Part shown: one piece after another, positions 12,732 through 28,745 of the stretch
How the letters are laid out: every line of letters begins with the position of its first letter
How positions within the stretch are numbered: position 1 is the stretch's first letter
From: Sunxiuqinia indica
Lineage (GTDB): Bacteria; Bacteroidota; Bacteroidia; Bacteroidales; Prolixibacteraceae
Assembly: GCF_009847015.1 (NCBI RefSeq)
Contig: NZ_WVEM01000006.1
Span: 248,001 to 312,000 of the forward strand
Direction of reading: 5' to 3'
Length of the DNA: 64,000 nucleotides
Notes under the pieces: model-generated
What the model saw: only the letters and a program-made list of their open reading frames with translations
Databases searched by the model: none
Told to the model about the DNA's origin: nothing
Position numbers and translations under genes: made by a program

Positions 12732-15197
12732 TCACTCATACCTCAACGCTTCCACCGGATTCCAGGTTGCCGCCCTCCAGCTTTGCCAACTCACCGTTAA
12801 TAGTGCAATACCAAGCGCCAACAATCCGGCCAAGGCAAAGATCCACCAGCTTAAGTTGGTTTTGTACGCAAAGTTTTCGAGCCACTTACTCATGGCGTAG
12901 TAAGCGATGGGCGTGGCAATTACAAAAGCGACGATCACCCATTTCACAAAGTCTTTATTGAGCAGGGCAAGTATTTCTGAGATTTTGGCTCCATTTACTT
13001 TCCGGATGCCAATTTCTTTTACACGTGCTTTTGAAGCGAATTTTGCAAGGGCAAACAGTCCCATTGCTGCAATAAAAATAGTTAGCAACGCCAAGGCCAG
13101 GTAAACCCGCCCAAAATTATTATCAGCCTGATAAGCTTCATTGAAACAGTCGTCTAAAAAGCGGAAATGATACTCTTCCTGAGGATAAAGTTGATTCCAG
13201 AGTTTTGTAACAGAGGCAATGGTTGCCTGCATATCTTGCGGCGAAATTTTCACAAAGTAATAGCCAACTGTTCGGTACCACCACAAACTGTTATAATAAA
13301 TTACGGGCTTTATTTCGTCTTTCAGCGAAAGGTGGTGGTAATCCTTTATTACTCCCAAAATTCGACAGGTATTGTCGCCAACAACCAGCAGGCTATTGAC
13401 TGCCTTAGCGGGATCGATACCCAATTGTTTGCAGGCCGATTGATTGATTAAAACTTCATTGGCATCTTTTCTTGATGTTGGACTAAACAATGAACCGGCC
13501 AGCAAATCGATGGAAAAGAGATCGAAATAATCATAGTCTACCCGAGCAATAGAGAATGGCTTTTTATTTTCCTCCTGTCCGTGTATCCAAACCTGATCGC
13601 TTGATCGGTGATAATCTTCACCGGCAACAATTTCAGCTGTTGTGAACCCTTTTACGCCGGGAATTTTCTGAACTTCGCTTCGAAATGTTTCCAGCTTCGA
13701 TAGCTGATCCGGTTTTTTAATCATCGTCATCGGGCTGAAAGAAACCATCGTATGATCCATTTCTATCCCGGTATCGGTGTTTTGCATAAATTGTAACTGC
13801 CTAAAAACTGTCATTGTTCCAATAATAAGAAAGATGGCAATGCCAAACTGAAATACGACCAATGCTTTTACCGAAGCCAAAGATCCCCTGTTTAATTGAG
13901 ACCTGAAACTGCGGGCAGATTTCAGCATTTTACTCACCACATACAGAAATGGATAAACCGAACTTACGAACGTTCCAACCAAAACCAGTAGGCAGCAAAC
14001 CAAGATTAACATCCCCCAGCTCAACGAGAAGATTTCAAATCCACCAATCGTGATAGCACTTTTCAGGAAAGCAGCCCCCAGCAAAAAGCTGATTAGACCG
14101 GCAATCAAATTGAATAGGAAAGCTTCTCCAAAAAACTCAAACAGCAAATGACCACGATTTGCCCCTAAAATCCGATGAACTCCCCGGTTCGTTGTTTGAC
14201 TGATGGATGACGCCACCGAAATGTTAATGAAATTCAACAACGAGGTAACAATCAACAATAAGCCAATCAAGGCAAAAGCCCACACTTTTACGTTACTTCC
14301 GTTTGCAAACATTTCGCCATCCTTCTTTGAAAACAGGTGAATCCGACTCACAGGCATGAATTCAAACTGAACGCTTTCATTATTTTGCCTGATATGTTGA
14401 ATACAAGGTTCAATAGCCGCCGTATATTTGGCTTCTACATCTTGGATATGAGCTCCTGGCTTTAAACGAATATAGGTGTAGCCGCGGGTTCCTTTCCACT
14501 GTCCCTGCGAGTAGGGGTCGCGATCGACCCACGAAGAAAGCTGACTGTTATCCAACTCTCCTGTTGCATAGTCAAAGTTGCGCATGTAATACAAAAGCGC
14601 TTTTCGCTGAAGGATCAAGTCGAAGCGGATATGGCTGTTTGCCGGCACATCATCAAACACACCAACTACATTAAACTCCCAGCCCTCATTTAACTTAAAC
14701 GATTGGTTAACAGGAAATGCTTTCCCAAAAAGCTTTTGAGCCAACGACCGGCTAATAATGGCATTGTGGATATCATCAAACAACTGATTTTTGTTTTCAC
14801 TGGCAATTTTCCGCGGGAATACCTTAAAAAACGAAGAATCGGTAAAAAACATATTCACGTCCTGCACGCTGGCATCGGGTGTAAAAACGGTAATAATATC
14901 TTTGTCTAAGTGCGTGGCTGCTTCAATTTCGGGGAGCTCATTTTGCAAAACAGCCCCCACCCCATTGTAATTTTTTGCCGTATTGACCAGCTCGTTACTT
15001 TGATCACTACGTTTTAGTTCTACCCGGTACATTTGACTGGCCTCTTGCCAAAAACGGTCGTAGCTTTTCTCCGAAATGATCCAAGCTGTAATAAACAGAA
15101 AGGCAGTCATGCCAATGGTTAATCCCAGCAAATTAATGAGCAGATTGGTTTTACTATTCAGTATTCTTCTTAGTAATGAGTTGATCAGTATCTTCAT
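12732..15197 (-). CDS. FtsX/MacB-type ABC transporter permease (copy 1)
   Basis: An inner-membrane permease of about 821 residues with the two-module layout: TM segment near the N-terminus (LLGLTIGMTAFLFITAWII), MacB-like periplasmic domain, three TM helices (about 325-430), a second TM and periplasmic domain, and a C-terminal FtsX domain with three TM helices ending WNPVEALRYE. Start 15197 (MKILINSLL) was chosen over an ATG at 15245, which would overlap the upstream gene. The last 100 residues, from VKEIGIRKVNGAKISEIL onward, are almost identical to those of the permeases at 16644, 19384 and 21783, while the rest is divergent. Family members couple ATP use to export or envelope signalling; the substrate is unknown. 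Confidence 0.92.
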   Translation of the reverse strand: MKILINSLLRRILNSKTNLLINLLGLTIGMTAFLFITAWIISEKSYDRFWQEASQMYRVELKRSDQSNELVNTAKNYNGVGAVLQNELPEIEAATHLDKDIITVFTPDASVQDVNMFFTDSSFFKVFPRKIASENKNQLFDDIHNAIISRSLAQKLFGKAFPVNQSFKLNEGWEFNVVGVFDDVPANSHIRFDLILQRKALLYYMRNFDYATGELDNSQLSSWVDRDPYSQGQWKGTRGYTYIRLKPGAHIQDVEAKYTAAIEPCIQHIRQNNESVQFEFMPVSRIHLFSKKDGEMFANGSNVKVWAFALIGLLLIVTSLLNFINISVASSISQTTNRGVHRILGANRGHLLFEFFGEAFLFNLIAGLISFLLGAAFLKSAITIGGFEIFSLSWGMLILVCCLLVLVGTFVSSVYPFLYVVSKMLKSARSFRSQLNRGSLASVKALVVFQFGIAIFLIIGTMTVFRQLQFMQNTDTGIEMDHTMVSFSPMTMIKKPDQLSKLETFRSEVQKIPGVKGFTTAEIVAGEDYHRSSDQVWIHGQEENKKPFSIARVDYDYFDLFSIDLLAGSLFSPTSRKDANEVLINQSACKQLGIDPAKAVNSLLVVGDNTCRILGVIKDYHHLSLKDEIKPVIYYNSLWWYRTVGYYFVKISPQDMQATIASVTKLWNQLYPQEEYHFRFLDDCFNEAYQADNNFGRVYLALALLTIFIAAMGLFALAKFASKARVKEIGIRKVNGAKISEILALLNKDFVKWVIVAFVIATPIAYYAMSKWLENFAYKTNLSWWIFALAGLLALGIALLTVSWQSWRAATWNPVEALRYE

Positions 15198-15229
15198 CGG
15201 TTGGTTAATATTCGTTGTTGTATTTTGGT

Positions 15230-16072
15230 TTATTGTTCTCCCCATCGATACGCTCTCAAGGTCTTATTCAAGGTTGGTACTAATAGCAGGTTTTCTTCAG
15301 GTATAAACTCAATATCGGCAGCAATAACCTTTTCAGGTCCAAGGTCGAGAGCCAGCGATTTCACTCCCGAGCTATCAAGATGCCAGATTTCACCTTGCCA
15401 GGCTCCCGAAACAAAAAAGCCATTCCGGCCATCAGAAACTATTCCGTCGCAATTCTCTATTCCAGAACAAAACTCGGTCAACGACCTTGTCGTTTTATTT
15501 ACTGAATAAATAGTTGCGTTCCCCATATTCAATACCAATAAGCTTGGCTCAACGCATAACAGCCCGTTCGCTCCTTTAAGCAACGGATCATCGCACCAAA
15601 CCGAAACGCTGTCGTTTGCCAGCCTATAAATCTTGTTTCCTTTGCAGTCGGAAATGAAAACATTGCCTGATTTATCGGCAACTGCATCGTTGAGAAAAAT
15701 AGCATTATCAATTTTTAACTGCTTGAGGATTTCTCCTGTTGTAATGTTTATTTCCACCACTTCGTCAACATCGGCCACGAAAAGCTTATTGCCATCAAGA
15801 GCCAACCCTTGCGGGCTGTTCAACCCGCCAATCCACTTCAGTTCTACAATTTTCCCATCCAACCCCACCTTTGAGATAAAGCCGTTCCCGTCTTTAGTGC
15901 AGTAGTTGCCATTGACGTTCGAAACGTAAATCAGTTGGTTCTCGCGGTCGAAAATAGCCGATTCAGGTTTTGCCATTACGATGTCGGTTTCCCAAACCAG
16001 GGAAAGGTTCTGACTGTTTGCCTGCAACATTGTTGTCAGAAGAATACTTAAAAGCGTCGTTTTTAAATGCAT
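15230..16072 (-). CDS. SMP-30/NHL-like beta-propeller protein, exported
   Basis: A protein of about 280 residues from the ATG at 16072 (MHLKTTLLSILLTTMLQANSQ, a signal peptide); an ATG at 16111 would add 13 hydrophilic residues and overlap the permease-tail remnant. The mature part shows propeller-like repeats: LIYVSNVNGNYCTKDGNGFIS, LNSPQGLALDGNKLFVADVDEV, DAVADKSGNVFISDCKGNKIYRL, and DGIVSDGRNGFFVSGA. The pattern fits SMP-30/gluconolactonase-type or NHL-like six-bladed propellers. Enzyme activity cannot be deduced. It sits inside the permease array in the same direction, so it may be co-transcribed and bind a ligand or envelope component. Confidence 0.8.
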   Translation of the reverse strand: MHLKTTLLSILLTTMLQANSQNLSLVWETDIVMAKPESAIFDRENQLIYVSNVNGNYCTKDGNGFISKVGLDGKIVELKWIGGLNSPQGLALDGNKLFVADVDEVVEINITTGEILKQLKIDNAIFLNDAVADKSGNVFISDCKGNKIYRLANDSVSVWCDDPLLKGANGLLCVEPSLLVLNMGNATIYSVNKTTRSLTEFCSGIENCDGIVSDGRNGFFVSGAWQGEIWHLDSSGVKSLALDLGPEKVIAADIEFIPEENLLLVPTLNKTLRAYRWGEQ

Positions 16073-16103
16073 TTGATAATTATTAAACTGTCGATTTATA
16101 TAG

Positions 16104-16163
16104 CTATTCATACCTCAGTGCCTCATCCGGATTTCTTGTGGCTGCCCTCCAACTTTGCCAATA
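16104..16163 (-). pseudogene. Orphan C-terminal tail of an FtsX permease
   Basis: Read on minus, this stretch encodes WQSWRAATRNPDEALRYE followed by TAG, matching the terminal residues of the array permeases (SWQSWRAATRNPVEALRYE) with one change, P-V to P-D. Nothing upstream of it encodes the rest of a permease; the match breaks at about 16163, just before the GxxExxY cassette. It is a remnant of a lost permease or a by-product of recombination at the shared tail. Confidence 0.8.
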
Positions 16164-16172
16164 CAATTATCT

Positions 16173-16636
16173 GAATCAGGATTTTAGGATTTTCAGGATT
16201 AATGTTTCCTGAATAATCGCTTTACTTCTAAACTCGTTGATCCAAAATTGATGAGCCGGCCTTTCTCTATTTGATAGGCCGTCAAATAATTTAAAGCTTG
16301 AGCAAGATGGACATCTTCCAATTTGACCAAAGTCTTTAATTCAACCATCACTGTCCCTTCAACGATAAAATCCGCTGCGGGTTCCCACCTGAATGTTTTC
16401 GTAATAGATTGGCATTTCTTGTTCTCTCAAGAATTTGAGACCTGCTTTGTCCATCTCAATCGCTAAACATCGTTGATAGATTAGCTCTTGAAATCCATTC
16501 CCCAACGTATTGTGCACTTTCATGGCACAACCAATAATTCGGTACGTCAATTCATCATCTATTTTCTTATCCATCATTTTAAATTCTTGTCAATCTTCTA
16601 ATCCTGTTCATCCTTTCATCCTGCAAATCCTGATTC
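16173..16636 (-). mobile_element. Cassette-like element with inverted ends carrying a GxxExxY gene
   Basis: The GxxExxY gene is bounded by related sequences in opposite orientation. The left end (16173-16200) reads as repeats of AATCCTGAAAATCCTAAAAT on the minus strand; the right end (16600-16636) has the same ATCCTG/ATCCTGATTC units on plus. Beyond the left end lies the orphan permease tail, beyond the right end the intact tail of the permease at 16644. Boundaries are approximate, and no transposase is present. Confidence 0.5.
16199..16577 (-). pseudogene. GxxExxY-family protein gene, frameshifted
   Basis: The first frame gives MMDKKIDDELTYRIIGCAMK, then VHNTLGNGFQELIYQRCLAIE, matching the GxxExxY family (the motif is GNGFQELIY), and stops after GTRSGFYR. 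The family sequence continues in another frame from about 16375: ADFIVEGTVMVELKTL, then HLAQALNYLTAYQ, and FGSTSLEVKRLFRKH ending at TAA 16199-16201. A single indel near 16373-16378 explains the break. Joined, the two parts give about 125 residues, the usual family length. The family is thought to have a PD-(D/E)XK-like fold and no established role. It sits in a cassette-like element within the permease array. Confidence 0.85.
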
Positions 16637-16643
16637 CGACATT

Positions 16644-19049
16644 TTATTCATACCTCAACGCTTCCACCGGATTTCTCGTTGCAGCCCGCCAGGTCTGCCA
16701 ACTAACGGTAAGCAATGCAATTCCCAAAGCCAACACCCCAGCAAGGGCAAAGATCCACCAGCTTAAGTTGGTTTTGTACGCAAAGTTTTCGAGCCACTTA
16801 CTCATGGCGTAGTATGCAATGGGGGTGGCAATTACAAAAGCGACGATCACCCATTTCACAAAGTCTTTATTGAGCAGGGTAAGTATTTCTGAGATTTTGG
16901 CTCCATTTACTTTCCGGATGCCAATTTCTTTTACCCTTTTATTTACGGTATGCGACACCAACGCATAAAGTCCCAAACAGGCAATCATAATTGCCAACAG
17001 AGAACTTACTCCGGCAAGTTGCCCAAGTTGTTTATATGAAACATATTGTTTGTCAAAAAAACTGTCAAGAAAAAAGAAATCGGCCTGAGCCTGCGGGTAG
17101 TGTTTTTCCCAAACCTGCTTTGCTGTTTTCATTAATTCCGGAATATTTGCCGTACTAACCAGCGCCGGGTAATAGCCAAATTCATGCGGGTGTTTGAACT
17201 GATAAATATAAGGTTCCAACTCCTTTTGTAACGATTCATGATGAAAGTTTTTAACAACACCAACAATTTCAACTTCCCGTTTTCCGATATTTATTTCTTC
17301 GCCAATTGCCTCACCTGATGATTCAAACCCCATAACCTCAGCAGCTTTTTCGTTGATAATTACATTTTTATTTTCGCTGGTTATTATGGGATAGAAATTT
17401 CGACCCGCAATAATTGGAACCTGGTAGGTCTCAAAATAACTTTCATCAGAAAATGAAATATTAAATGTTGTATTTAACTGTTTTCCTCTCCGGCCAACCG
17501 TTACATTACTATATCTGTTTGTTTGCCCGGGAATATTCATCGTTGCAGTAACTTTTTTAACATATGGAGATTGCAAGAGTTCCTCCCGGAAAGCACGGTA
17601 CTCATGGTATCGTCTTTCTCCGGTCGTATTATTGGTAGCCGGTGCCCGCATAACCAAAACCTGGGTCGGATTCATTCCCAGGTTACTTTTTTCCAGAAAA
17701 TTGATTTGTTTGAATATTAAAGTCGTCGAAACGATAAGAACAATCGCCAGCATAAATTGAAAAACAGTCAGACCATAACGAATGGAACCTAAACCACTGG
17801 AATTATTGACTTTGTTGTTTATAACCTGCAAAGGTGCAAATGAAGATTGGAGCAAGGCTGAAATGGACCCGGTAAAAATTATACCTGACAGAAGTAAACC
17901 TCCCAACATGAGCCAAAACCACAATTGCAAAAAAGTAGTAGCTGAAATGTTACTGTTAACAAAGGACCTGAACAGTGGTAAAGCCATAAAAATAAGCAGC
18001 AATGAAAAAAGTACGGCGACAAAATTGATAACGAACAATTCGACGAAATGATATTTAACTAAAGACCGGTTATTAGCGCCGTTTATTTTTCTGATGGCCG
18101 ATGCCTTAACACGCTCAAATGACAAAGCAGTTGATATATTGATATTGTTGGTCCAGGCGATGAATATGATAAAAATGGCGATAATAAATAACAACTTCAC
18201 TTTTGTAAAATTTCCCTGAGGAACGAATTCACCTTCCAAATCCGATTTTAAATAAATATCTTTTACCGGTATAATAGAATACCCCACTTCCAAACCATCT
18301 TTTCCATTATTTGTGAGGTATTTTTCAGATATGTTTGTTAGCAAATTTGTTATCTCCTTTTCGGTGGAGGAAGGCGTTTTTCTGAAATAACTTGAAACAA
18401 AAATCCCTCTCCAACTTCCCCGAACATTCATACCGTAATCGGCGAGGGTATTAAAACTCACCACAAAGTCGTAGTGCAAATGTGTATTGGGAGGCAAGGT
18501 TTTGAACACAGCGGTTACAGTAAAAACGATACCTTCATTGAGTTTTATAATTTTTCCGATCGGCTCGTCATTGCCAAAATAAATACGCGCCATCTTATCA
18601 GAAATTGCAACCGTGTATTTATTTGACAACGCTGTTGAAATGTCTCCCAATACCATTTTATTTTGAAAAACGTTAAAGAAAGCACTGTCTGCCCACACTA
18701 CATCCTGATTATACATCTGAACATTATCGGTATACATATAACACGATTCATAAAACGCCCTGCAACTTGCTGCAATCAATTCTGATTCACCCTTCAGGGC
18801 CTGACTTAGCGCCGATTGCGTTCGGCAACTGTTGGTCAATTGTTTCCCATCTTTTGAAGCGTGGTAACTAACGCGATACAAATTTTCCGTTTGCGGATAA
18901 AAGCTGTCATAACTTTTTTCATACTGAATCTGCATCCAGAGCATGGCTGAGGCTGCTATTCCGATGGATAGGCCAATTACGTTTATTACAAAAAAACGCC
19001 GGTGTCTTAAGAAGTTTCTAAAGATTTGTTTCAAATAGTGTTGAAGCAT
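16644..19049 (-). CDS. FtsX/MacB-type ABC transporter permease (copy 2)
   Basis: An 801-residue inner-membrane permease with TM segment FFVINVIGLSIGIAASAML at the N-terminus, a periplasmic MacB-like domain, a first FtsX block (LLFIIAIFIIFIAWTNNINIS, then VVLFSLLLIF-like helices near 345-430), a second periplasmic domain and a C-terminal FtsX block. The 3' end, up to EALRYE, is nearly identical at DNA level to copy 1 over roughly 190 bases, whereas the N-terminal 680 residues differ strongly. It has no dedicated ATPase next to it; the nearest is at 24325. It probably forms part of a heteromeric or alternative permease set sharing that ATPase. Confidence 0.92.
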   Translation of the reverse strand: MLQHYLKQIFRNFLRHRRFFVINVIGLSIGIAASAMLWMQIQYEKSYDSFYPQTENLYRVSYHASKDGKQLTNSCRTQSALSQALKGESELIAASCRAFYESCYMYTDNVQMYNQDVVWADSAFFNVFQNKMVLGDISTALSNKYTVAISDKMARIYFGNDEPIGKIIKLNEGIVFTVTAVFKTLPPNTHLHYDFVVSFNTLADYGMNVRGSWRGIFVSSYFRKTPSSTEKEITNLLTNISEKYLTNNGKDGLEVGYSIIPVKDIYLKSDLEGEFVPQGNFTKVKLLFIIAIFIIFIAWTNNINISTALSFERVKASAIRKINGANNRSLVKYHFVELFVINFVAVLFSLLLIFMALPLFRSFVNSNISATTFLQLWFWLMLGGLLLSGIIFTGSISALLQSSFAPLQVINNKVNNSSGLGSIRYGLTVFQFMLAIVLIVSTTLIFKQINFLEKSNLGMNPTQVLVMRAPATNNTTGERRYHEYRAFREELLQSPYVKKVTATMNIPGQTNRYSNVTVGRRGKQLNTTFNISFSDESYFETYQVPIIAGRNFYPIITSENKNVIINEKAAEVMGFESSGEAIGEEINIGKREVEIVGVVKNFHHESLQKELEPYIYQFKHPHEFGYYPALVSTANIPELMKTAKQVWEKHYPQAQADFFFLDSFFDKQYVSYKQLGQLAGVSSLLAIMIACLGLYALVSHTVNKRVKEIGIRKVNGAKISEILTLLNKDFVKWVIVAFVIATPIAYYAMSKWLENFAYKTNLSWWIFALAGVLALGIALLTVSWQTWRAATRNPVEALRYE

Positions 19050-19383
19050 ATTTACATGTATTTCGGCAATGGTCTTTTTTTTGATGACTATATAGTTGAT
19101 ACTTACAGTTAGGATAATTTTAGCTTATCCTAACCCATACTTCAATTATTTTGATCAACCAACCATCTAAAATCAAATAGGATACCTAAATTTCAAAACA
19201 CTAAATATCAAACAATTACATTTTGAACAAACTATTAAATGTTAAAATTATAGACACACTGTGTTAAAATTTTATACGAATAAATATACAAATCAAACAT
19301 TAATGTAGCTATCTCAACGCTTCAGTTGAAACCTCCATCTTACTCATGCATTAAAGCCTCCATCCCAAACAATCGGGATTTCA
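19050..19383. other. AT-rich spacer with hairpin and a possible permease-tail relic
   Basis: This 334-base gap separates permease copies 2 and 3. It contains a perfect 10-bp inverted repeat GTTAGGATAA / TTATCCTAAC (19108-19117 and 19125-19134, 7-nt loop), without a T-run on either side, so its role is unclear. At 19309-19341 the minus strand encodes KMEVSTEALR followed by TAG, faintly like the NPVEALRYE permease ending; this may be a third decayed tail. Confidence 0.45.
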
Positions 19384-21762
19384 TTACTCATACCTCAGCG
19401 CTTCAACCGGATTTCGCGTAGCCGCCCGCCAACTCTGCCAACTCACCGTTAATAGTGCAATACCAAGCGCCAGCAATCCGGCCAAGGCAAAGATCCACCA
19501 GCTTAAGGTTGTTTTGTAGGCAAAGTTTTCGAGCCACTTATTCATGGCGTAGTAAGCAATGGGTGTAGCTATTACAAAGGCTATGGCTACCCATTTTATA
19601 AAGTCTTTGTTGAGCATTATTAATACTTCGGAGATTTTTGCGCCGTTTACTTTGCGGATGCCGATTTCTTTTGTTTTCATTAAAATGGTATTATATGTCA
19701 TCCCTAGAAGTCCCATAACTGATAGAATAACAGCTAATATTGAAAATGCACTCACCAGCTTAGACTGGTTCTTCTCATGTTCATAGAACTGATTGATTTG
19801 ATCTGTCAGGTAATACGTATTGACAATTTTATCAGGTGATATCTCTTTAAAAAGCTGATGAATACTTTCCCGAACTTCACCATCGTTGATCCCCGAAGTT
19901 TTAATGGCAAACAGACGCATGTGGTCCGGATGTTGCTGAATGATTACCATGGGTTGAATCAAATCGCGCAATGAATGAGCGCTAAAATCTTTGACAATTC
20001 CCCGAACATGAAAGCCATTAAAGATATCGCCAGCTTTCAGATTATATTTTAATGCTGCCGATTCGTTAAAAATGACATCGCGCCGCTCTTCGTTAAAATC
20101 ATTGAATCCTTCGCCATCTATCAACTGCATTTGCAAAAGATCAACCATTCCCTTGCCCATGATTAAGCCATCGAAAGCGACCTTTTCACCTTCATACTGC
20201 AATTTTACAGGAAGAAAATTATTGAACGGTGGAATAAATGAAGAACCCGCACTAGTGATAACCCCTGGTAGTTTTTCCACCTCATTTTTAATAACGTGAA
20301 ACTGGCTGGTTAATTCTTCAGAATTAAGTTCGCAAACCAATACATGCTCGGGATTGATCGCAGTGAAATTTGTAAGGGCATAATTGATTTGTTTTTTGAG
20401 CGTGAGCACGCCAGTAATCAAAACGATAAAAATTATAAAATGAAGACTCAAAAATGAATTCCGCCACTGTTTTGAACCTGGACTGTTTGTTGACTTCCCG
20501 GAAAGAAGCAAAACTGCAGAGACTCCTGAAACTGTTGATCCAATAAGAATACCCGATAAAGACCCTGTGACAAGAATAATTGCAATTAAAACCAGCCAGG
20601 TTCGCCACATCAAAAACACATCCAGATCAAGTGTTAGGCTTAGTGTGTTGTTAATAAATGGAATGCCAGCCACAATAACGGCAATCGCGGGTAGAAGGCT
20701 TAACAATGTGCTGAAATTAGATTCAAAAAGGATTTGCTTTCTGATGGAATTTTGCGACGCTCCCAACGCCTTTTTAGCCCCAAGTTCTTTTAATCTGGAA
20801 TTGATCTTTGCTTTTGTCAGAAACACATAGTTAACCATGGCAATAAGCAGAATTAACAAGGCAATGGCGATATAATAGATCAACTCTACAGCATTGCCCT
20901 CACGAACAAAGTGATTGGCAGTAAGTGTATTCGACTGCAAATAAATATCAGTAACCGATTGGAGACGAAAATCTATTTTTTGCCGTTTTTCATCGTCTGA
21001 AAATTTCTTATATTTTTGCATTCTTTCGGCAACCTTATCAGGATTGATTGAAGGAGACAACTGAAGATATGTGTAAAAAGCATTACGATCCCAATTTTTA
21101 AATTCTACATAACCACTGTTATATTGTCCGAACATTTTCTTTTCAAACCCAAATATTTCCCCGCTCAAATTGAGGCTTGCAATGAATTTAGGATTAAGTG
21201 TTGAAGTGGAAGGGAAATCGGCATAAACACCAGTGATTACCAACGAAATAAACTGCTGGTTAAGACGAACCTCAAGTGTTTTCCCGAGCGCACTTTCGTT
21301 TTTGAAATATTTCTGTGCCATCTTATCTGAGATGGTTACCTCACCCCGTGATTGAGCAGGAACACCAAGTTTCAAATTAATTCCTAAACATTGAAAGATA
21401 GAAGCGTCTGCAAAAGCAAATAGCTCGTCCTGGAGAATTTCATTGTTTTGGTTTTTTACCTCGACATCAGATGTTTGGTAATATCTAAAAAAGTCATCGA
21501 CAAATGACAAGTCCGATTTTATAGCTTCCCCCAGCGGATAGGAAGTCCGGCAATCATCACCCTGAACCACTCGATATAAGTTTTGATGATTGGGAATAAA
21601 AAGGTCGAACGAATTTTCATGAATATATAGCAGCGCCAGTAACATAATACAGCCAAGCCCAATCCCGAGCCCCAAAATGCTGATAGCAGATTGAATTTTG
21701 TTTTTCAAGATTCCACGGATAGTGATTTTAAAATTGGTGTTCATATAGTAGTTCTTTATCAT
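19384..21762 (-). CDS. FtsX/MacB-type ABC transporter permease (copy 3)
   Basis: A 792-residue permease with N-terminal TM segment (SILGLGIGLGCIMLLALLYI), periplasmic MacB-like domain, a central FtsX block including AIALLILLIAMVNYVFLT and KINSRLKELGAKKALGAS, a second periplasmic region, and a C-terminal FtsX block ending RNPVEALRYE. A start at 21744 (MNTNFKITIRG) is also possible. The gene lies 20 bp after the stop of the permease at 21783, which indicates co-transcription. Its last 100 residues match copies 1, 2 and 4 with only a few changes (for example SEVLIMLNKDFIKWVAIAFV). The substrate is unknown. Confidence 0.92.
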   Translation of the reverse strand: MIKNYYMNTNFKITIRGILKNKIQSAISILGLGIGLGCIMLLALLYIHENSFDLFIPNHQNLYRVVQGDDCRTSYPLGEAIKSDLSFVDDFFRYYQTSDVEVKNQNNEILQDELFAFADASIFQCLGINLKLGVPAQSRGEVTISDKMAQKYFKNESALGKTLEVRLNQQFISLVITGVYADFPSTSTLNPKFIASLNLSGEIFGFEKKMFGQYNSGYVEFKNWDRNAFYTYLQLSPSINPDKVAERMQKYKKFSDDEKRQKIDFRLQSVTDIYLQSNTLTANHFVREGNAVELIYYIAIALLILLIAMVNYVFLTKAKINSRLKELGAKKALGASQNSIRKQILFESNFSTLLSLLPAIAVIVAGIPFINNTLSLTLDLDVFLMWRTWLVLIAIILVTGSLSGILIGSTVSGVSAVLLLSGKSTNSPGSKQWRNSFLSLHFIIFIVLITGVLTLKKQINYALTNFTAINPEHVLVCELNSEELTSQFHVIKNEVEKLPGVITSAGSSFIPPFNNFLPVKLQYEGEKVAFDGLIMGKGMVDLLQMQLIDGEGFNDFNEERRDVIFNESAALKYNLKAGDIFNGFHVRGIVKDFSAHSLRDLIQPMVIIQQHPDHMRLFAIKTSGINDGEVRESIHQLFKEISPDKIVNTYYLTDQINQFYEHEKNQSKLVSAFSILAVILSVMGLLGMTYNTILMKTKEIGIRKVNGAKISEVLIMLNKDFIKWVAIAFVIATPIAYYAMNKWLENFAYKTTLSWWIFALAGLLALGIALLTVSWQSWRAATRNPVEALRYE

Positions 21763-21782
21763 TAATAGATTTAGGCGTTTAA

Positions 21783-24230
21783 TTACTCATACCTCAACGC
21801 CTCAACCGGGTTCCGCGTAGCGGCTCTCCAGCTTTGCCAACTAACCGTTAATAAAGCAATTCCCAAAGCCAGCAAACCTGCAAGTGCAAAAATCCACCAG
21901 CTCAAACTGGTTTTATAAGCAAAGTTTTCGAGCCATTTATTCATCGCATACCAAGCAATGGGGGTCGCGATCACAAAAGCAATCGCCACCCACTTTACAA
22001 AGTCTTTATTGAGCATAGCCATAACTTCAGATATTTTGGCGCCATTTACCTTACGGATGCCGATTTCTTTTGCCCGCCGCCGGGAAATGTGCAGAGTAAT
22101 GGCAAACAGCCCCATCATAGCAATGAAGATAGCAATTCCGGTGAACAGCAAAATGAACGTTTTTAAACTGGCTTCCCGATTGTATTGAACCTCAAATTTC
22201 TTATCTAAAAAGGAATAGCTAAATGGTGCATCAGGATATGCACTATTCCATTTATTTTTAATAAAATCGATGGTTGTGCCCATGTTTCCAGGTTTTACGC
22301 GGACCGACACATAATTATGAAAACGATCAAATAAAATGGCAAACGGACGAATGTTTTTATAGTAGCTCTCGAAATGAATATCCTGTACAACACCTATGAT
22401 ATTCAGTCTCGTTAGTTGTTCCTGATTCGCACGAATCTCGCTGTCGTAAATAAATGAACCCACTGGGTCTTTCAAGCCAAGACTTTTGACGGCCGATTCA
22501 CTTAGAATAATACTGTGGCTATCATCGTAATTTTTTGCAAAGTCACGGCCTTCAATTAAATGTAGTCCTATCGTCTGGATAAAATCGTAATTTCCCCGAT
22601 ATGGGATCACCATGTGATTGGCCGGATCACCTTGCTTTTTCATGTAAAGTGGTGTGTTATAATCGCCATCACCGGGAACAGTGCTTGAAGTAGTAATTGA
22701 AACAATGGAAGGATCATCCAGCAATTCCGATTTAAAATTGTCAAAGTTCTGGCGCAATCCCCAAACCGGAGCATCTAAAACCACCACATGTTCCTGATCG
22801 TAACCAGGATTTTTATGCATAAAAAAACTCAATTGGCGGCTTACCAATATTGAAACAGAAATCAGGATGATGGCTATAACAAATTGGCCGGTTACCATCA
22901 ACTGGCGAGCTGTACTCTTACTGCTATAAGCTGTTTGGTTTTTAATAAGAAAAACACTGTTATCTGCTGCCAACCTAATGGCCGAAAACATTCCACCTCC
23001 ACTACCTATCAGGACAATCAATCCTACAATCAAGAGGTATGTAAGTGGTGTAGAAAAAAGAGCAAGATTACCAATTCCGGGAGAAAGCGGTTCAAGATTC
23101 TTATAACTTATCCAGCTAAGAATAACCGCCAATACCATAGCAACCGATGCAATTCCGAGCGATTCCAGCATGAAACCTGAAAAGATGTCTTTTCGTCCGG
23201 CACCGGATATTTTTCTCAAGGCGATTTCTTTAGCCCGTCCCATATTATTGACGGTGAGCAAATTCACGTAATTCAAAAACGCAACAACCAATACAAGTAG
23301 AGCTGTTCCAATAGCAATATAAACATTGTTAACCCGACTGTTTGGTTTCAGCTCGCTTTCAAAATCGGAATGCAAATGGATATCAGTCACGGGTTGGAGC
23401 AGAAAATGCCAGTAATCATGTCCCGGGGTCTCGGTCGTGGAAAACTCCTTATTGAATCCGCCGTTGATATACGTTTCAACCAATTGCCCCAGTTTCTTTT
23501 CAACCTGTTTCGGGTTGGCTCCTGATGAGAGCATCGCATAAGTATAGTAAGTGCTGTTAAGCCAATGATCGGTGTTGCTATCAGGATCGCCACTACTGGC
23601 AAACAGAATATCAAAGTCAAAATGGGTCTGTTGCTTCGGTTTTTGACAGATTCCTGTAACCTGATAGGGACGATATCGCCCCCAAATTTTTAGACTGAGC
23701 GATTTACCGGGAATTATGCCCTGATCATAAGCTTCCTTCCCAAAGTACTTGATGGCTGTTTCTTTGGTCAACACAATCGTCTTTGGGTTCTTTAAAACTG
23801 TTTCGGCATCCCCCTGAATTAACTCCAACTGAAAGACTTCAAAAAAATTAGAGTCAGCCTCCACGACCTGTCTTTCATTAAAGGCCAGAATATGATCTGG
23901 ATCCGAATCATTTTTAACTGAAATATTGGGCCACTTCCAAAGTCGGGTGGCCTTTTCCACTTCGGGGATTTCGCGAACGAGTGTTTTTGCTAATGGCGGA
24001 GCAGCCATTGCCGAACTAAAATCAATGCCACTCATTTCAATTTTTGCTGCCACCCGGTACAAACGCTCATGCGACGGATACCAACGATCGTAGCTTGTTT
24101 CGTTGACCACGTAGGCATAAACCAACAGAGAACAAACAAAAGCAATGGTCAATCCGAGTAGATTGATACCCGAAATGAATTTGTTCTTCAAAAAGCCCCT
24201 GCTCGCAAATTTCAAAAATAGTTTTAGCAT
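21783..24230 (-). CDS. FtsX/MacB-type ABC transporter permease (copy 4)
   Basis: An 815-residue inner-membrane permease. The first TM segment is INLLGLTIAFVCSLLVYAYV, followed by a periplasmic MacB-like domain, a central FtsX block (YIAIGTALLVLVVAFLNYVN, then MGRAKEIALRKISGAGRKD), a second TM and periplasmic domain, and the shared C-terminal module from AKEIGIRKVNGAKISEVM to EALRYE. It is the first of the four related permeases after the ATPase at 24325 and so the likeliest direct partner of that ATPase. The intervening 95 bases contain a permease-tail remnant (24262-24324). Confidence 0.92.
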   Translation of the reverse strand: MLKLFLKFASRGFLKNKFISGINLLGLTIAFVCSLLVYAYVVNETSYDRWYPSHERLYRVAAKIEMSGIDFSSAMAAPPLAKTLVREIPEVEKATRLWKWPNISVKNDSDPDHILAFNERQVVEADSNFFEVFQLELIQGDAETVLKNPKTIVLTKETAIKYFGKEAYDQGIIPGKSLSLKIWGRYRPYQVTGICQKPKQQTHFDFDILFASSGDPDSNTDHWLNSTYYTYAMLSSGANPKQVEKKLGQLVETYINGGFNKEFSTTETPGHDYWHFLLQPVTDIHLHSDFESELKPNSRVNNVYIAIGTALLVLVVAFLNYVNLLTVNNMGRAKEIALRKISGAGRKDIFSGFMLESLGIASVAMVLAVILSWISYKNLEPLSPGIGNLALFSTPLTYLLIVGLIVLIGSGGGMFSAIRLAADNSVFLIKNQTAYSSKSTARQLMVTGQFVIAIILISVSILVSRQLSFFMHKNPGYDQEHVVVLDAPVWGLRQNFDNFKSELLDDPSIVSITTSSTVPGDGDYNTPLYMKKQGDPANHMVIPYRGNYDFIQTIGLHLIEGRDFAKNYDDSHSIILSESAVKSLGLKDPVGSFIYDSEIRANQEQLTRLNIIGVVQDIHFESYYKNIRPFAILFDRFHNYVSVRVKPGNMGTTIDFIKNKWNSAYPDAPFSYSFLDKKFEVQYNREASLKTFILLFTGIAIFIAMMGLFAITLHISRRRAKEIGIRKVNGAKISEVMAMLNKDFVKWVAIAFVIATPIAWYAMNKWLENFAYKTSLSWWIFALAGLLALGIALLTVSWQSWRAATRNPVEALRYE

Positions 24231-24261: not shown

Positions 24262-24324
24262 CTACCGCAGCGCCTCTACCGGGTTCCTCGTCTCAGATCT
24301 CCGCCAATTTTGCGCCTTATAGTT
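24262..24324 (-). pseudogene. Orphan FtsX permease tail directly behind the ATPase stop codon
   Basis: Immediately after the TAG that ends the ATPase, and in the same frame, the minus strand encodes NYKAQNWRRSETRNPVEALR and then TAG. The segment RNPVEALR is identical to the permease tails and the preceding residues are weakly similar to SWQSWRAAT. It is most simply the last trace of a permease once located behind the ATPase. Frame agreement with the ATPase may be chance. Confidence 0.75.
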
Positions 24325-25020
24325 CTATTCTGTTAACAATTCGGCCTTGTTTATTTTGTCTGCCCTAATAAGTCCATCTTCCAATCGAATGATGCGTTTT
24401 CCGTATCCTGCAAATTTTTCGTTGTGGGTAACCTGAATGATGGTCATTCCCTCGTTGTTCAATTCACGAAGCACCTCCATAATCATTTCGCCCTGTGTTG
24501 AATGAAGATTTCCCGTAGGTTCGTCGGCCAGCAGAAGTTTTGGTTTGCCCACAATGGCACGGGCTATTCCAACCAGCTGCTGTTGACCGCCCGAAAGTTG
24601 TGGCGGGAAAAGGTCTTTTTTGGCCACCATATTAAACCGGTCGAGCAGATCGGCAACCATCGCTTTACGCTCTTTGCTTTTTACACCTTTGTAAATAAGC
24701 GGTGTTTCAATATTTTCATACACTGTCATTTCTTCAATGAGATGATAGGCCTGAAAAATAAATCCCATAAAATTACGGTGGTATTCCACTTTGGCCTTTT
24801 CCTTCAGGTCGAGTACTGATTTATCGTATAGCAAATAACCTCCGGCTGATGGAGCATCGAGCAATCCTATAATATTCAGCAAAGTTGACTTGCCCGAACC
24901 GCTAGGCCCCATTATACTTAGAAATTCGCCTTCCTGTACTTCCATGCTAACAGACTTAAGAACAAAAGTCCGCTGAAACTTTGAATCGTAATACTTGTCA
25001 ATGTTGGATAGTTGTATCAT
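24325..25020 (-). CDS. ABC transporter ATP-binding protein, MacB/LolD type, with unusual signature residues
   Basis: A 231-residue nucleotide-binding subunit. Walker A is GPSGSGKST (about 40-48), the Q-loop lies in FMGFIFQAYHLI, the signature is LSGGQQQLVGIARA, Walker B is [13 protein letters not shown], and the H-loop is QVTHNEKFA. Two positions depart from the usual LolD/MacB pattern: the signature-helix Arg is Leu (QQQLVG against QQQRVA) and the D-loop Asp is His (GNLHS against GNLDS). All catalytic residues proper remain. It precedes four related permeases and probably energises them. Confidence 0.93.
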   Translation of the reverse strand: MIQLSNIDKYYDSKFQRTFVLKSVSMEVQEGEFLSIMGPSGSGKSTLLNIIGLLDAPSAGGYLLYDKSVLDLKEKAKVEYHRNFMGFIFQAYHLIEEMTVYENIETPLIYKGVKSKERKAMVADLLDRFNMVAKKDLFPPQLSGGQQQLVGIARAIVGKPKLLLADEPTGNLHSTQGEMIMEVLRELNNEGMTIIQVTHNEKFAGYGKRIIRLEDGLIRADKINKAELLTE

Positions 25021-25150: not shown

Positions 25151-27499
25151 CTATTCATACCGCAATGCTTCCACCGGATTCCGCGTTGCCGCTTTCCAGC
25201 TTTGCCAGCTCACTGCCATAAAGGCTATAAACAATGCAAAAGCCGCACTGATCAGAAAATATAAAGGAGTAATAGATACCCGGTTTACAAAATGTTGTAA
25301 CCATTGATGCATGGTAAAATAACTGCCAACAAAAGCGATAACAATGGCAATAAGAACCAGGATAAACGTTTCTTTTAACAGCTCTCGCACAACCTGTGTT
25401 TCAGTACTGCCAATTACCCTCCGTATTCCGATCTCTTTTCTGCGTCGGTTTACATTCATCACCGAAAGTGCCATTAATCCAATAAAACTGATTATGATCG
25501 CCAGTCCGGCACCGGTAGTCACCAGTTTTATCATACGCTCTTCGTTGGTGTACTTATTGGCGTAAACATCGGTCAACTGAAACTTGCTGATAATGAGTTC
25601 CGGCGAATAACTTTTAATTACTTCATCAATTTGGGCCAGCTGCGCAGACGTAGTTCCTGCTTTTGTACGCACATAAAGGTTATTTACATTGTTGCGGTAA
25701 TTTGTAATAACAAGTGGCGCAATTGGTGCTCCGGGATGATCGATGTAGTAAAAATCCTTTGCAATCGCAATCACTGTTAAAGGTTCATCAAACATATCAA
25801 CAAGGCTGCCAACTTTCACATCAGGCCCCAGCATTTTTGCCGCTGCCTGGTTAAGAATTACTGCCTTTTTATCTGATTCAGACTTATTAAAATACCGGCC
25901 GTCAACCAATTCAAGTTGCATGGTTTTTGCAAATCCGGGATGTACACGATATTCGTCGATACCTTTTAAATTACCGGGATCGCCGTATTTTTTTATTCCC
26001 TGTCCGCTTGAGCCTTGTCCCATCGCATGATCGGAAACAGCCACATCTTCAACAAATGCCAGTTGCGACAATTCATCAGCAATAGACGACGCACTTCTTC
26101 GCACCTCGTTATTCAGGTTGGTAATTCCGATTACATTCTCGGGATTAAAACCAAGTGGCACTTCCTTTAAATAGTTCACCTGGGCAAAAACAATTACCAG
26201 CGCACTAATGAGAAAAACAGAAATGGAAAACTGCGAAATAACGGCAATGCGCGACAAAGTGCTTTTGCGCTTTACTTTAGACGACTTTCCTTTAAGCGCA
26301 TTTACCAGGTTTAATTTCGACAGATAATAACTTGGATAAGCCCCCGAAACCAGTATTAAAACGGTAAGGATTGCCATAACCAGTAAAATACCGGAGAAGG
26401 AAAACATGTCTGAAAGTTCGATCTGGCTTTTCATTAGCCTCGCAAACGCGGGTTGAACAAGCGCTGTTAGTCCCAATGCTAACACAAACGACAAAAGACT
26501 GATTACCGATGTTTCGGTGAAGAACAACCGCGACAACGTGCTTTGCGTTGCTCCCAACGATTTTCGTGAAGCAATTTCTGCAATCCGTTTTTCGCCATGC
26601 AAAACATACAAGTTGATGTAATTTACCATGGCAATAAGCAGCATCAAAAAGGCAATGCCTGCAATAATAAACACGTGTGTCAAATTGGCTTTTGGCGAAA
26701 GATCGAAATCAACAACGGTATGTAAATGTAGATCTGCCAGCAGCTCAGTCCCAGTTTCCACCGTAAGATTGAATGGTTCTCCCCACGGTTTCATCAGCTC
26801 GTTGTTTGCAGCGGCTATTTTTTCGCCTACCGAAGCTAAATCGGCATTTTCATCAATTCTGAAATAAGTGTAAAGCTCCAGTCCTCCCCAGTTCTCGGGA
26901 TGAACCGTTTGCATCGACACCAGCAAATCGAAATTAAAGTGTGTGTTATTGGGTAAATCATTTATTACACCGGTTACGGTAGCCTGCTGCTCCGAAACAT
27001 TCAGCACCTTACCAACACAATCTACGGTGTTGAATACTTTTAATGCCGTTGACCGGGTAATTACCGCATTGTTTTCACCCTGCAAAGCATCGTTGCTGTT
27101 TCCCTGAATGAGCTCCAGTCCGAAAACATCAAAAAACTCTTTATCGGCATACAACAGCTGCAAATTGGAGAATTTTTGCTTCTCAAATTCTGCTGTAGTA
27201 TTCCAGCCGTTATAAATCTGAGTGGCCGATCTTATTCCCGGAACCCGCGATGTGATTTCGGTATAAGCTTTGCGCAAACAAATGGCGTAATTGGTGGTGT
27301 TTCCATTTTCGGTAACTGCATTGTAAAGACGAAGAACATTGTTTTTTGTTTGAAAATGCTGGTCGTAACTTAACTCGTGTTTCAGGTAAACCGACAATAA
27401 CAATACGGCACTTAATCCAATGGCCAATCCGGGCAGGTTTACAAAAACCAGCAAGGGATTTCGCCTAAACATTCTGAATATAAATCGTAAATTTTTCAT
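25151..27499 (-). CDS. FtsX/MacB-type ABC transporter permease (copy 5, distinct subfamily)
   Basis: A 782-residue permease with TM segment LPGLAIGLSAVLLLSVYL at the N-terminus, periplasmic MacB-like domain, central FtsX block (AGIAFLMLLIAMVNYINLYV, then KRIAEIASRKSLGATQSTLS), second periplasmic region, and a C-terminal FtsX block (EIGIRRVIGSTETQVVRELL). Unlike copies 1-4 its last 100 residues are not homogenised; only the final tail SWQSWKAATRNPVEALRYE is shared. It follows the canonical ATPase at 27584 by 84 bp, so these two most likely form one complete transporter. Confidence 0.93.
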   Translation of the reverse strand: MKNLRFIFRMFRRNPLLVFVNLPGLAIGLSAVLLLSVYLKHELSYDQHFQTKNNVLRLYNAVTENGNTTNYAICLRKAYTEITSRVPGIRSATQIYNGWNTTAEFEKQKFSNLQLLYADKEFFDVFGLELIQGNSNDALQGENNAVITRSTALKVFNTVDCVGKVLNVSEQQATVTGVINDLPNNTHFNFDLLVSMQTVHPENWGGLELYTYFRIDENADLASVGEKIAAANNELMKPWGEPFNLTVETGTELLADLHLHTVVDFDLSPKANLTHVFIIAGIAFLMLLIAMVNYINLYVLHGEKRIAEIASRKSLGATQSTLSRLFFTETSVISLLSFVLALGLTALVQPAFARLMKSQIELSDMFSFSGILLVMAILTVLILVSGAYPSYYLSKLNLVNALKGKSSKVKRKSTLSRIAVISQFSISVFLISALVIVFAQVNYLKEVPLGFNPENVIGITNLNNEVRRSASSIADELSQLAFVEDVAVSDHAMGQGSSGQGIKKYGDPGNLKGIDEYRVHPGFAKTMQLELVDGRYFNKSESDKKAVILNQAAAKMLGPDVKVGSLVDMFDEPLTVIAIAKDFYYIDHPGAPIAPLVITNYRNNVNNLYVRTKAGTTSAQLAQIDEVIKSYSPELIISKFQLTDVYANKYTNEERMIKLVTTGAGLAIIISFIGLMALSVMNVNRRRKEIGIRRVIGSTETQVVRELLKETFILVLIAIVIAFVGSYFTMHQWLQHFVNRVSITPLYFLISAAFALFIAFMAVSWQSWKAATRNPVEALRYE

Positions 27500-27583: not shown

Positions 27584-28282
27584 TTACAGCAGCATCTCCC
27601 CAATTTCCTTTTTCACTTCTTCGGTTAAAATCTGTCCATCAAATAAATTCACAACCCGGTGTGCAAATTCAGAATCGTGCAAAGAGTGCGTTACCATTAC
27701 AATGGTGGTGCCTTCCTGGTTTAGCTCGGTAAGCAGGTTCATGACTTCCAGTCCGTTTTTCGAGTCGAGGTTACCAGTTGGCTCATCGGCAAGAATTAAC
27801 TTCGGATTGGCAACTACAGCACGAGCAATGGCTACACGTTGCTGCTGACCACCTGAAAGTTGCTGCGGAAAGTGTTTCCGGCGATGACTAATTTTCATCC
27901 GTTCCAGCACTTTTTCGACCATGGCTTTTCGCTCGCTGGCTTTTAGTTTCAGATAGATGAGTGGCAGCTCCACATTTTCATACACATTTAGTTCATCAAT
28001 CAGGTTGAAGCTTTGGAACACAAACCCAATGTTCCCTTTTCGGAGCTGGGTGCGGTTTCGCTCTTTCAACTGGCCCACTTCTTTCTGATCGAAGAAATAC
28101 TCGCCCCCAGAGGGATTATCGAGCAGACCAATGATATTGAGCAACGTTGACTTACCACAACCCGATGGTCCCATAATGGCAACAAACTCGCCTTTCTGCA
28201 CATGCAGACTGACTTGATTCAACGCACTGGTTTCAATATCTTCCGTGCGAAATACTTTGGTTAAGTTTACTGTTCGTATCAT
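27584..28282 (-). CDS. ABC transporter ATP-binding protein, MacB/LolD type
   Basis: A 232-residue nucleotide-binding subunit with all canonical motifs: Walker [10 protein letters not shown] (about 40-48), Q-loop in [11 protein letters not shown], signature [14 protein letters not shown], Walker [14 protein letters not shown] and the H-loop in MVTHSLHD. It probably drives the FtsX permease at 25151. With the membrane-fusion protein at 28825 and the TolC-like protein at 30235 it would make a tripartite MacAB-TolC-like pump that spans the envelope and takes substrate from the periplasm. That assembly is inferred from gene order. Confidence 0.96.
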
Positions 28283-28364: not shown

Positions 28365-28745
28365 CTACCCTTTCACCTTACCACCTTTTTCCCTGATACG
28401 CTCTCTATATGTTATCATTTTTTGAATCATCGCTGAAAGAATTATAGTCCTATCAATAAGCGATTCATTATTCTCTATCAAATAAATCTTGTTGGCAATA
28501 ATTAATTGAGTTCTTAGCTCAACACATGATCCTTTTGCCATTTTCAAAAATCGAATGAACTCGTTATTCGACTGACAATCAGACCCCTCAGAGATATTTG
28601 AAGGAATAGAGACCGCAGATCTTTGAATTTGATCTCTAAGTCCAAAATCATTACATGACTTAAGCAAAGAATAAACCTCAACTGCCATGTTCACTCCTTC
28701 TTTCCAAATCTTTAAATCTTCGAATTTCTCTATTCTATTTTCCAT
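28365..28745 (-). CDS. Four-helix bundle protein (S23/23S rRNA intervening-sequence family)
   Basis: A 126-residue protein of the four-helix bundle family (TIGR02436-like). It starts MENRIEKFEDLKIWKEG and carries the family-typical GLRDQIQRSAVSIPSNISEG and then FLKMAKGSCVELRTQL. Members occur within 23S rRNA intervening sequences or as orphan genes scattered in Bacteroidota genomes; a biochemical role is not established. It interrupts the efflux operon between the membrane-fusion gene and the ATPase and is flanked by similar CTACCCTTTCACC / CTACCCTGTCACCC stretches. Nothing suggests it takes part in transport. Confidence 0.9.
   Translation of the reverse strand: MENRIEKFEDLKIWKEGVNMAVEVYSLLKSCNDFGLRDQIQRSAVSIPSNISEGSDCQSNNEFIRFLKMAKGSCVELRTQLIIANKIYLIENNESLIDRTIILSAMIQKMITYRERIREKGGKVKG

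Follow-up and report, generated by a model that had tools for sequence, protein, structure and literature searches.

Gene conversion limited to a 3′ module probably keeps permease tails alike in tandem arrays of type VII ABC permeases

Module-limited concerted evolution, by gene conversion between tails, best explains a permease array in a 64,000-nt window of Sunxiuqinia indica (the whole stretch of DNA that was analysed), and we give this reading a probability of about 0.88. Over the tail segment of these genes, and over this segment only, paralogues are more alike than orthologues, which is the mark of concerted evolution; in addition, the tail of one gene carries a mosaic tract with an internal breakpoint, which is the mark of conversion. 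Below, 'own genome' means the genome holding the window (5.25 Mb, 39 contigs), and papers are cited by PMC number.

Results

Four diverged permeases share one tail module

Five MacB_PCD and FtsX permeases, p1 to p5, were recognised from ORFs and by profile search, all on the minus strand of the window (as are all other features located below) and all above the cut-off for both PF12704 (MacB_PCD) and PF02687 (FtsX). Four of them, p1 (12732..15245, 837 aa), p2 (16644..19049, 801 aa), p3 (19384..21762, 792 aa) and p4 (21783..24230, 815 aa), share a tail module of 95 codons, which covers coupling helix 2, TM7, TM8 and a C-terminal helix. The module was delimited by the repeat and the breakpoints, and in p1 also by the structure model of p2, and it occupies 12735..13019 in p1, 16647..16931 in p2, 19387..19671 in p3 and 21786..22070 in p4. 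The fifth permease, p5 (25151..27499), is of the same family and lies outside this pool of tails.

A preliminary description of this DNA had placed the four ORFs here and had claimed that their last ~100 residues are nearly the same on strongly different bodies. This was borne out: over the six pairs, identity is 0.20–0.27 in the body and 0.88–0.96 in the last 95 codons, with a sharp boundary at the second coupling helix. At the DNA level, an ungapped direct repeat of 287 nt (12736–13022) has copies at 16648 (91%), 19388 (85%) and 21787 (80%). The near-identity of p1 and p2 over ~190 bases, also pointed out before, was found by base comparison to be 176 of 180 bases between 12840..13019 in p1 and 16752..16931 in p2, and only 68 of the next 90 bases agree. 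This tract starts at the start of homology and ends inside the tail, and its extent is as expected of a conversion tract limited by homology.

At sites where p1 and p2 have the same residue, the fraction of identical codons was 0.78 in the tail, against 0.37 expected from codon usage, and 0.33 in the body, against 0.39 expected. Codon identity is far above expectation in the tail only, so the uniform synonymous divergence along the genes that had been named in advance as contrary to conversion is absent. A DNA search of the whole own genome with the p1 tail returned only the four tails and the last 59 bases of the tail region of p5; a protein search further gave p5 (45% across the tail) and a single orphan end (match 16107–16175). 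Thus, neither search found a full tail outside p1–p4 elsewhere in the own genome. The preliminary description had not included p5 with its own tail, the orphan end (16104–16163) or a second, decayed one (24265–24312).

Tails group by genome and bodies do not

The p1 tail was searched against the own genome and 40 relatives and gave a match in 20 of the 41, of which 17 (own included) had E < 1e-30. From the other 16 genomes, 31 stretches were taken, and together with the window these gave 125 permeases, chosen by length (at least 450 residues) and C-terminal motif; at least four permease-like genes in which the motif was missed were left out (G004 1298, G018 24765, G018 30898 and G009 10006). 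Resemblance to the p1 tail and the C-terminal motif thus governed the choice of the set, and 'orthologue' here refers to body identity only. The longest array has 16 permeases in a row (G016). In blocks of 20 columns, mean identity was 0.09–0.38 in the body and 0.56–0.95 from KEIGIRKVNGA to the end.

Trees were built from 109 tails of the 17 genomes (at least 65% of consensus, ungapped). Changes of genome label numbered 44 in the nucleotide tree, 46 at third codon positions and 46 in the protein tree of the tails, compared with ~82 after shuffling (minimum of 200 shuffles 74–76), and in the body tree 81 compared with 82.3. Among 103 tails at 70% of consensus or more, the nearest tail by synonymous identity was in the same genome for 56 (7.8 expected), and the nearest body for 8. 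A body relative of at least 50% in another genome was available for 46 of the 103, and that relative was the nearest tail in 0 of the 46. In 60 of 66 between-genome orthologue pairs (body at least 50%), synonymous identity of the tails was below the mean that each gene has with paralogues of its own genome. The comparison with related genomes that had been suggested as a check thus came out in favour of exchange, with tails grouping by genome, third positions included, and bodies not.

Synonymous identity of tails was 0.51 within genomes and 0.44 between genomes, and the identities expected from codon usage, 0.38 and 0.36, lie below both, so codon usage does not produce the clustering. Most pairs of tails differ widely at synonymous sites, which means that the majority of exchanges must be old. 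Moreover, tails of neighbouring genes were more alike (0.552) than in shuffled array order (0.526), a value reached by 0 of 2000 shuffles.

One pair of permeases in a single genome (L058 of G023, at 5726 and 15258) has bodies 81% identical, and for three such high-body-identity pairs, this one included, mean synonymous identity of the tails was only 0.44; these pairs look as if the tail had been replaced after duplication.

In a wider scan, 76 loci of named genomes were taken from among the best 80 matches, and 172 permeases were read from 70 of them; 19 loci were picked by eye, and 18 of these gave 53 pairs. In Labilibaculum, bodies at 0.25–0.27 go with identical tail codons at 58–65 of 75–77 sites, and in Confluentibacter citreus a body identity of 0.28 goes with 47–49 of 79. 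Spirosoma was mixed (26–47 of 74–81), and little or no tail effect was seen at L169, L176, L144, L161, in two of the three pairs of L147 and in two of the three pairs of L101.

A mosaic tail and further recombination tests

The tail of p1 is composed of a p2-like part and a p3-like part. Sites were taken as informative if p1 shares its base with either p2 or p3 but not with both; along these, p1 is p2-like at 27 of 28 and then p3-like at 18 of 23; maxchi was 30.1, which 0 of 5000 shuffles reached. Gene conversion, which the preliminary description had proposed, is therefore supported by this mosaic as well as by the clustering of tails by genome at third positions, the preference for own paralogues in orthologue pairs and the adjacency effect.

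Inside tails, the PHI test for recombination was low in 6 of 12 genomes, with 3 of 500 permutations in the own genome, 0 in G001, G014 and G023, and 1 in G009 and G022. It was not low in the other six (388 of 500 in G016, 143 in G018, 126 in G004, 73 in G006, 478 in G002 and 499 in G012); in large pools, many old exchanges could blur this signal. When the best breakpoint of each pair was located, it fell 95–99 codons upstream of the stop for 320 of 396 pairs within a genome and for 343 of 400 pairs sampled across genomes. A breakpoint common to different genomes would also be expected from a constrained module, and this counts against the conversion account.

Orphan tail ends and inverted-repeat elements

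Between p1 and p2 lies an orphan tail end at 16104..16163 (WQSWRAATRNPDEALRYE plus stop), found by repeat, protein and motif searches and lacking a permease body. It is separated from p1 by an ORF for an NHL/beta-propeller-like protein (15230..16111; NHL 21.2 bits, cut-off 20), and between it and the p2 stop lies an inverted-repeat element (16165..16640, ends approximate, from the sequence and PF13366). The orphan thus follows a GxxExxY (PDDEXK_3) element, whose gene is broken by a frame change, with PF13366 in two pieces. A decayed orphan tail end, recognised by motif, lies at 24265..24312, downstream of the gene for the odd ATPase described below.

A 21-base pattern for EALRYE plus stop had 109 matches in 8 genomes and 0 in the reversed control, and 107 of the 109 share their contig with a match of the p1 tail search. 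A slightly looser pattern, run on the fetched stretches, gave 140 matches, of which 109 close a frame of at least 400 codons, 2 touch an edge and 29 are without a gene. These 29 orphan tail ends are spread over 10 of the 17 genomes, and by a crude motif rule the end of an inverted-repeat or hairpin element stands just before 20 of them, at least one of which is false (G002a 12639, where the motif is inside the tail itself). Because orphan tail ends occur, often beside inverted-repeat elements, tails are also sites of insertion or deletion.

Cassette exchange, in which a tail stays in place and receives a complete new permease body, would suit these orphans, as signs that genes were lost or inserted at tails, and would suit arrays that differ in body content and size. 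By itself, however, it gives no p2/p3 mosaic of the p1 tail, the second junction of which lies inside the tail, and we consider it unlikely, if the strongest of the alternatives to gene conversion between tails.

We also considered whether orphans are long target-site duplications made by GxxExxY elements. As a general mechanism this was not supported. Of 28 GxxExxY loci examined, 8 were within permease arrays, and outside arrays several had flanking direct repeats that, judged by eye, were the elements' own and not copies of neighbouring gene ends. A GTCTGAA-type element end precedes 5 of the 29 orphans by a simple motif rule, and by eye the own genome, G002 and G015 have the junction of element and orphan at almost the same point of the tail. 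A hairpin-plus-EALRYE unit was also considered as a repeat spread over the whole genome, but in G009 every match with E < 0.02 falls on the permease contig C94 and the remaining matches have E > 0.9, so there the unit is bound to the array.

Several single observations belong here. The element of the window stands directly after the p2 stop, and similar elements follow permease stops in G002. At L052 of G014 (15250–15551), a permease start was seen by eye directly before an orphan tail end, which fits a permease deleted internally down to its tail end. On contig C94 of G009 (L053 and L054), tandem units of a hairpin and EALRYE-stop follow permease genes, some of them palindromic around the stop codon. 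Past the p3 stop in the window (19320–19384), a small hairpin (AAATCCCGATTGTTTGGGAT) and, by eye, two degenerate mini copies of the last codons of the tail are present.

The tail module in the permease structure

A model of p2 from 52 sequences (mean pLDDT 87) has two like halves, and its top fold matches were YbbP and MacB. The tail comprises residues 707–801; it begins near the end of a long helix (670–714) and continues with TM7 (719–756), TM8 (764–791) and a short last helix (794–800), although model confidence in the tail is low (block means 51–79). MacB has its major coupling helix between TM2 and TM3, and its ATPase is also contacted by a minor helix at the C-terminus (PMC5985334); in YbbP, two coupling helices reach two ATPases (PMC12646458). 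Since the coupling helices are so placed in MacB and YbbP, the module would by homology hold the second major coupling region together with the minor helix EALRYE. The corresponding region of the first half lacks such conservation: its coupling helix has an identity of 0.35 compared with 0.82 in the second half, and the next two helices 0.20 compared with 0.79.

The best Foldseek match of the model was Escherichia coli YbbAP, a type VII ABC system (PDB 9ge6; E 1.9e-20, TM 0.47), which likewise has a pseudosymmetric permease with two coupling helices. However, YbbP is only 13% identical to p2 and has two extra linker helices (PMC12646458), whereas the helix list of the p2 model reads as eight TM helices. 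By the domains of p1–p5 and by the fold of the p2 model, these proteins belong to the type VII ABC (MacB) permeases. ADOP (TIGR03434) is the best NCBIfam match of p1–p5, but their scores of 192–274 are below its cut-off of 622.3; they also score only 82–131 against the darobactin exporter DarB (NF038008; curated score 700). ADOP genes are annotated 28 and 33 times in two Dyadobacter genomes, and in the available excerpts of that paper no mention of a homogenised tail was found (PMC11573002). Here, different from ADOP, an ATPase gene lies inside the array.

This position of the module gives some appeal to protein constraint alone, in which selection with no exchange at all preserves the tail as the part that contacts the ATPase: the MacB counterparts of its second coupling helix region and C-terminal helix contact the ATPase (PMC5985334), and even permeases with unrelated bodies from different genomes share 0.80 of their tail residues (5321 pairs). 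In-pool body relatives (at least 40%) have a tail identity of 0.82, barely above this value, and a body identity of 0.57 (94 pairs). Constraint alone is nevertheless very unlikely. It accounts neither for the clustering by genome at third codon positions, nor for the p1/p2 codon identity and the mosaic tract, nor for a first-half coupling helix that is so little conserved. Moreover, in five orthologue pairs outside the pool the tail segment diverges about like the body (means 0.64 and 0.63; tail minus body −0.04 to +0.09), so constraint is not enough by itself, with the weight of these pairs lessened by their having been chosen for tails unlike the consensus. Hence the constrained 3′ module of the preliminary description falls as a sole cause; because unrelated bodies of different genomes still share so much of the tail, constraint probably acts alongside conversion.

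An unusual ATPase as candidate shared motor

Next to p4, at 24325..25020, profile search and motifs identify an ABC ATPase of odd type (LSGGQQQLVGIA), a candidate shared motor. It reads LSGGQQQLV where canonical proteins have LSGGQQQRV, and NLHS where they have NLDS; we take these stretches to be the ABC signature and the D-loop. A canonical ABC ATPase, identified in the same way, is the upstream neighbour of p5 (27584..28282). Beyond the two ATPases, a membrane-fusion-type and a TolC-type protein were named by reading of the ORFs, and between a membrane-fusion-type gene and an ATPase a four-helix-bundle gene (TIGR02436) with repeat-like flanks was observed at 28365–28745.

At 71% identity or more, 15 of the 41 genomes, own included, have the odd ATPase, one copy each, and the next best match anywhere is 52%. 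All 15 have Leu in the signature, and in the D-loop His (14) or Gln (1). By motif reading, neither change was found in the other ATPases (14 readable of 15 loci, plus the canonical one of the own genome). It is present in 15 of the 17 tail-bearing genomes and absent from all 24 others, among them three with weak tail matches (1e-4 to 1e-3); this concerns the odd type only. As G001 (99% complete) and G013 have tails and lack it, the tail cannot depend on the odd ATPase alone. Contact with one shared ATPase, which the preliminary description had suggested as the cause of constraint, is thus plausible from this co-occurrence and still unproved; that one odd ATPase serves many permeases is a fair, likewise unproved, inference from sequence.

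We also asked of p5, with its canonical ATPase, whether tail type follows the ATPase, and this is not strict across genomes. By coordinates, the permease beside a canonical ATPase has a tail at 0.91–0.96 of consensus in G001, G006, G014, G008 and G024 and at 0.47–0.69 in the own genome, G004, G009 and G016; tails neighbouring a canonical ATPase in G018 and G023 look diverged by eye.

A tentative picture, which we regard as possible but on the doubtful side, is an array of one motor and many permeases, in which an ATPase with altered signature and D-loop would drive a changing set of permeases, and tail conversion would standardise their compatibility with it; the 95-codon tail would hold both ATPase-contacting helices of the second half. 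In ECF transporters, a single ATPase module serves several membrane parts, which compete for it. They are a different class of importers, and the sharing there was shown by reconstitution (PMC7755397), whereas here it is a hypothesis.

Discussion

In the mechanism that we propose, p1–p4 would be old, strongly diverged type VII (MacB/YbbP-like) paralogues in a tandem array, whose last 95 codons retain enough DNA identity for recombination. Non-reciprocal homologous exchange, i.e. gene conversion, would keep the tails alike within a genome while the bodies diverge freely. We infer that the exchange is ordinary homologous conversion, and its direction is presumed likewise; purifying selection on the module (second coupling helix, TM7, TM8 and C-terminal helix) would maintain the homology, and the reason for that selection may be docking to one shared ATPase.

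Besides constraint alone, two further explanations were tested and, like it, set aside. One is that the genes are young copies whose bodies diverged fast, which would leave the tails alike; this would suit genes in tandem on one strand, but it is hardly credible when the bodies of p1–p4 are so unlike each other, the body tree is not grouped by genome, and relatives in other genomes reach 0.47, 0.57 and 0.49 for the bodies of p1, p2 and p3 (p4 has none above 0.31). Equally far-fetched is the rewriting of gene ends by a reverse-transcription device (a diversity-generating retroelement or similar): gene ends are the place affected, the four-helix-bundle gene lies nearby and RVT_1 matches occur in three of six genomes searched (own 1, G006 2, G023 9), but the sole own match is on contig C35 and the window on C36, G001, G014 and G016 have shared tails and no RVT_1 match, and the RVT_1 search found no reverse transcriptase beside the variable genes of the own genome.

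Among the matches listed, the open literature gave no account of the tail or of conversion in permeases of this kind. The nearest case is mtrA-1 and mtrA-2 of methanogens, prokaryotic paralogues of one operon with long-lasting, domain-limited conversion and other parts that differ. That case concerns two genes, whereas here up to 16 permeases stand in a row, the module is at the 3′ end, many genera are involved and an odd ATPase accompanies the arrays (PMC4632066).

Domain-limited gene conversion between prokaryotic paralogues is thus already known; what is seen here is one 95-codon module held common to many very different permeases in arrays of many genera. The case for module-limited concerted evolution by gene conversion is strong, and the link to the motor is a fair, unproved hypothesis. 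Caution is due where trees and orthology calls for these proteins use their C-terminal FtsX domain. Should the module be where the odd ATPase docks, how paralogous transporters stay compatible with a shared motor would become a testable question.
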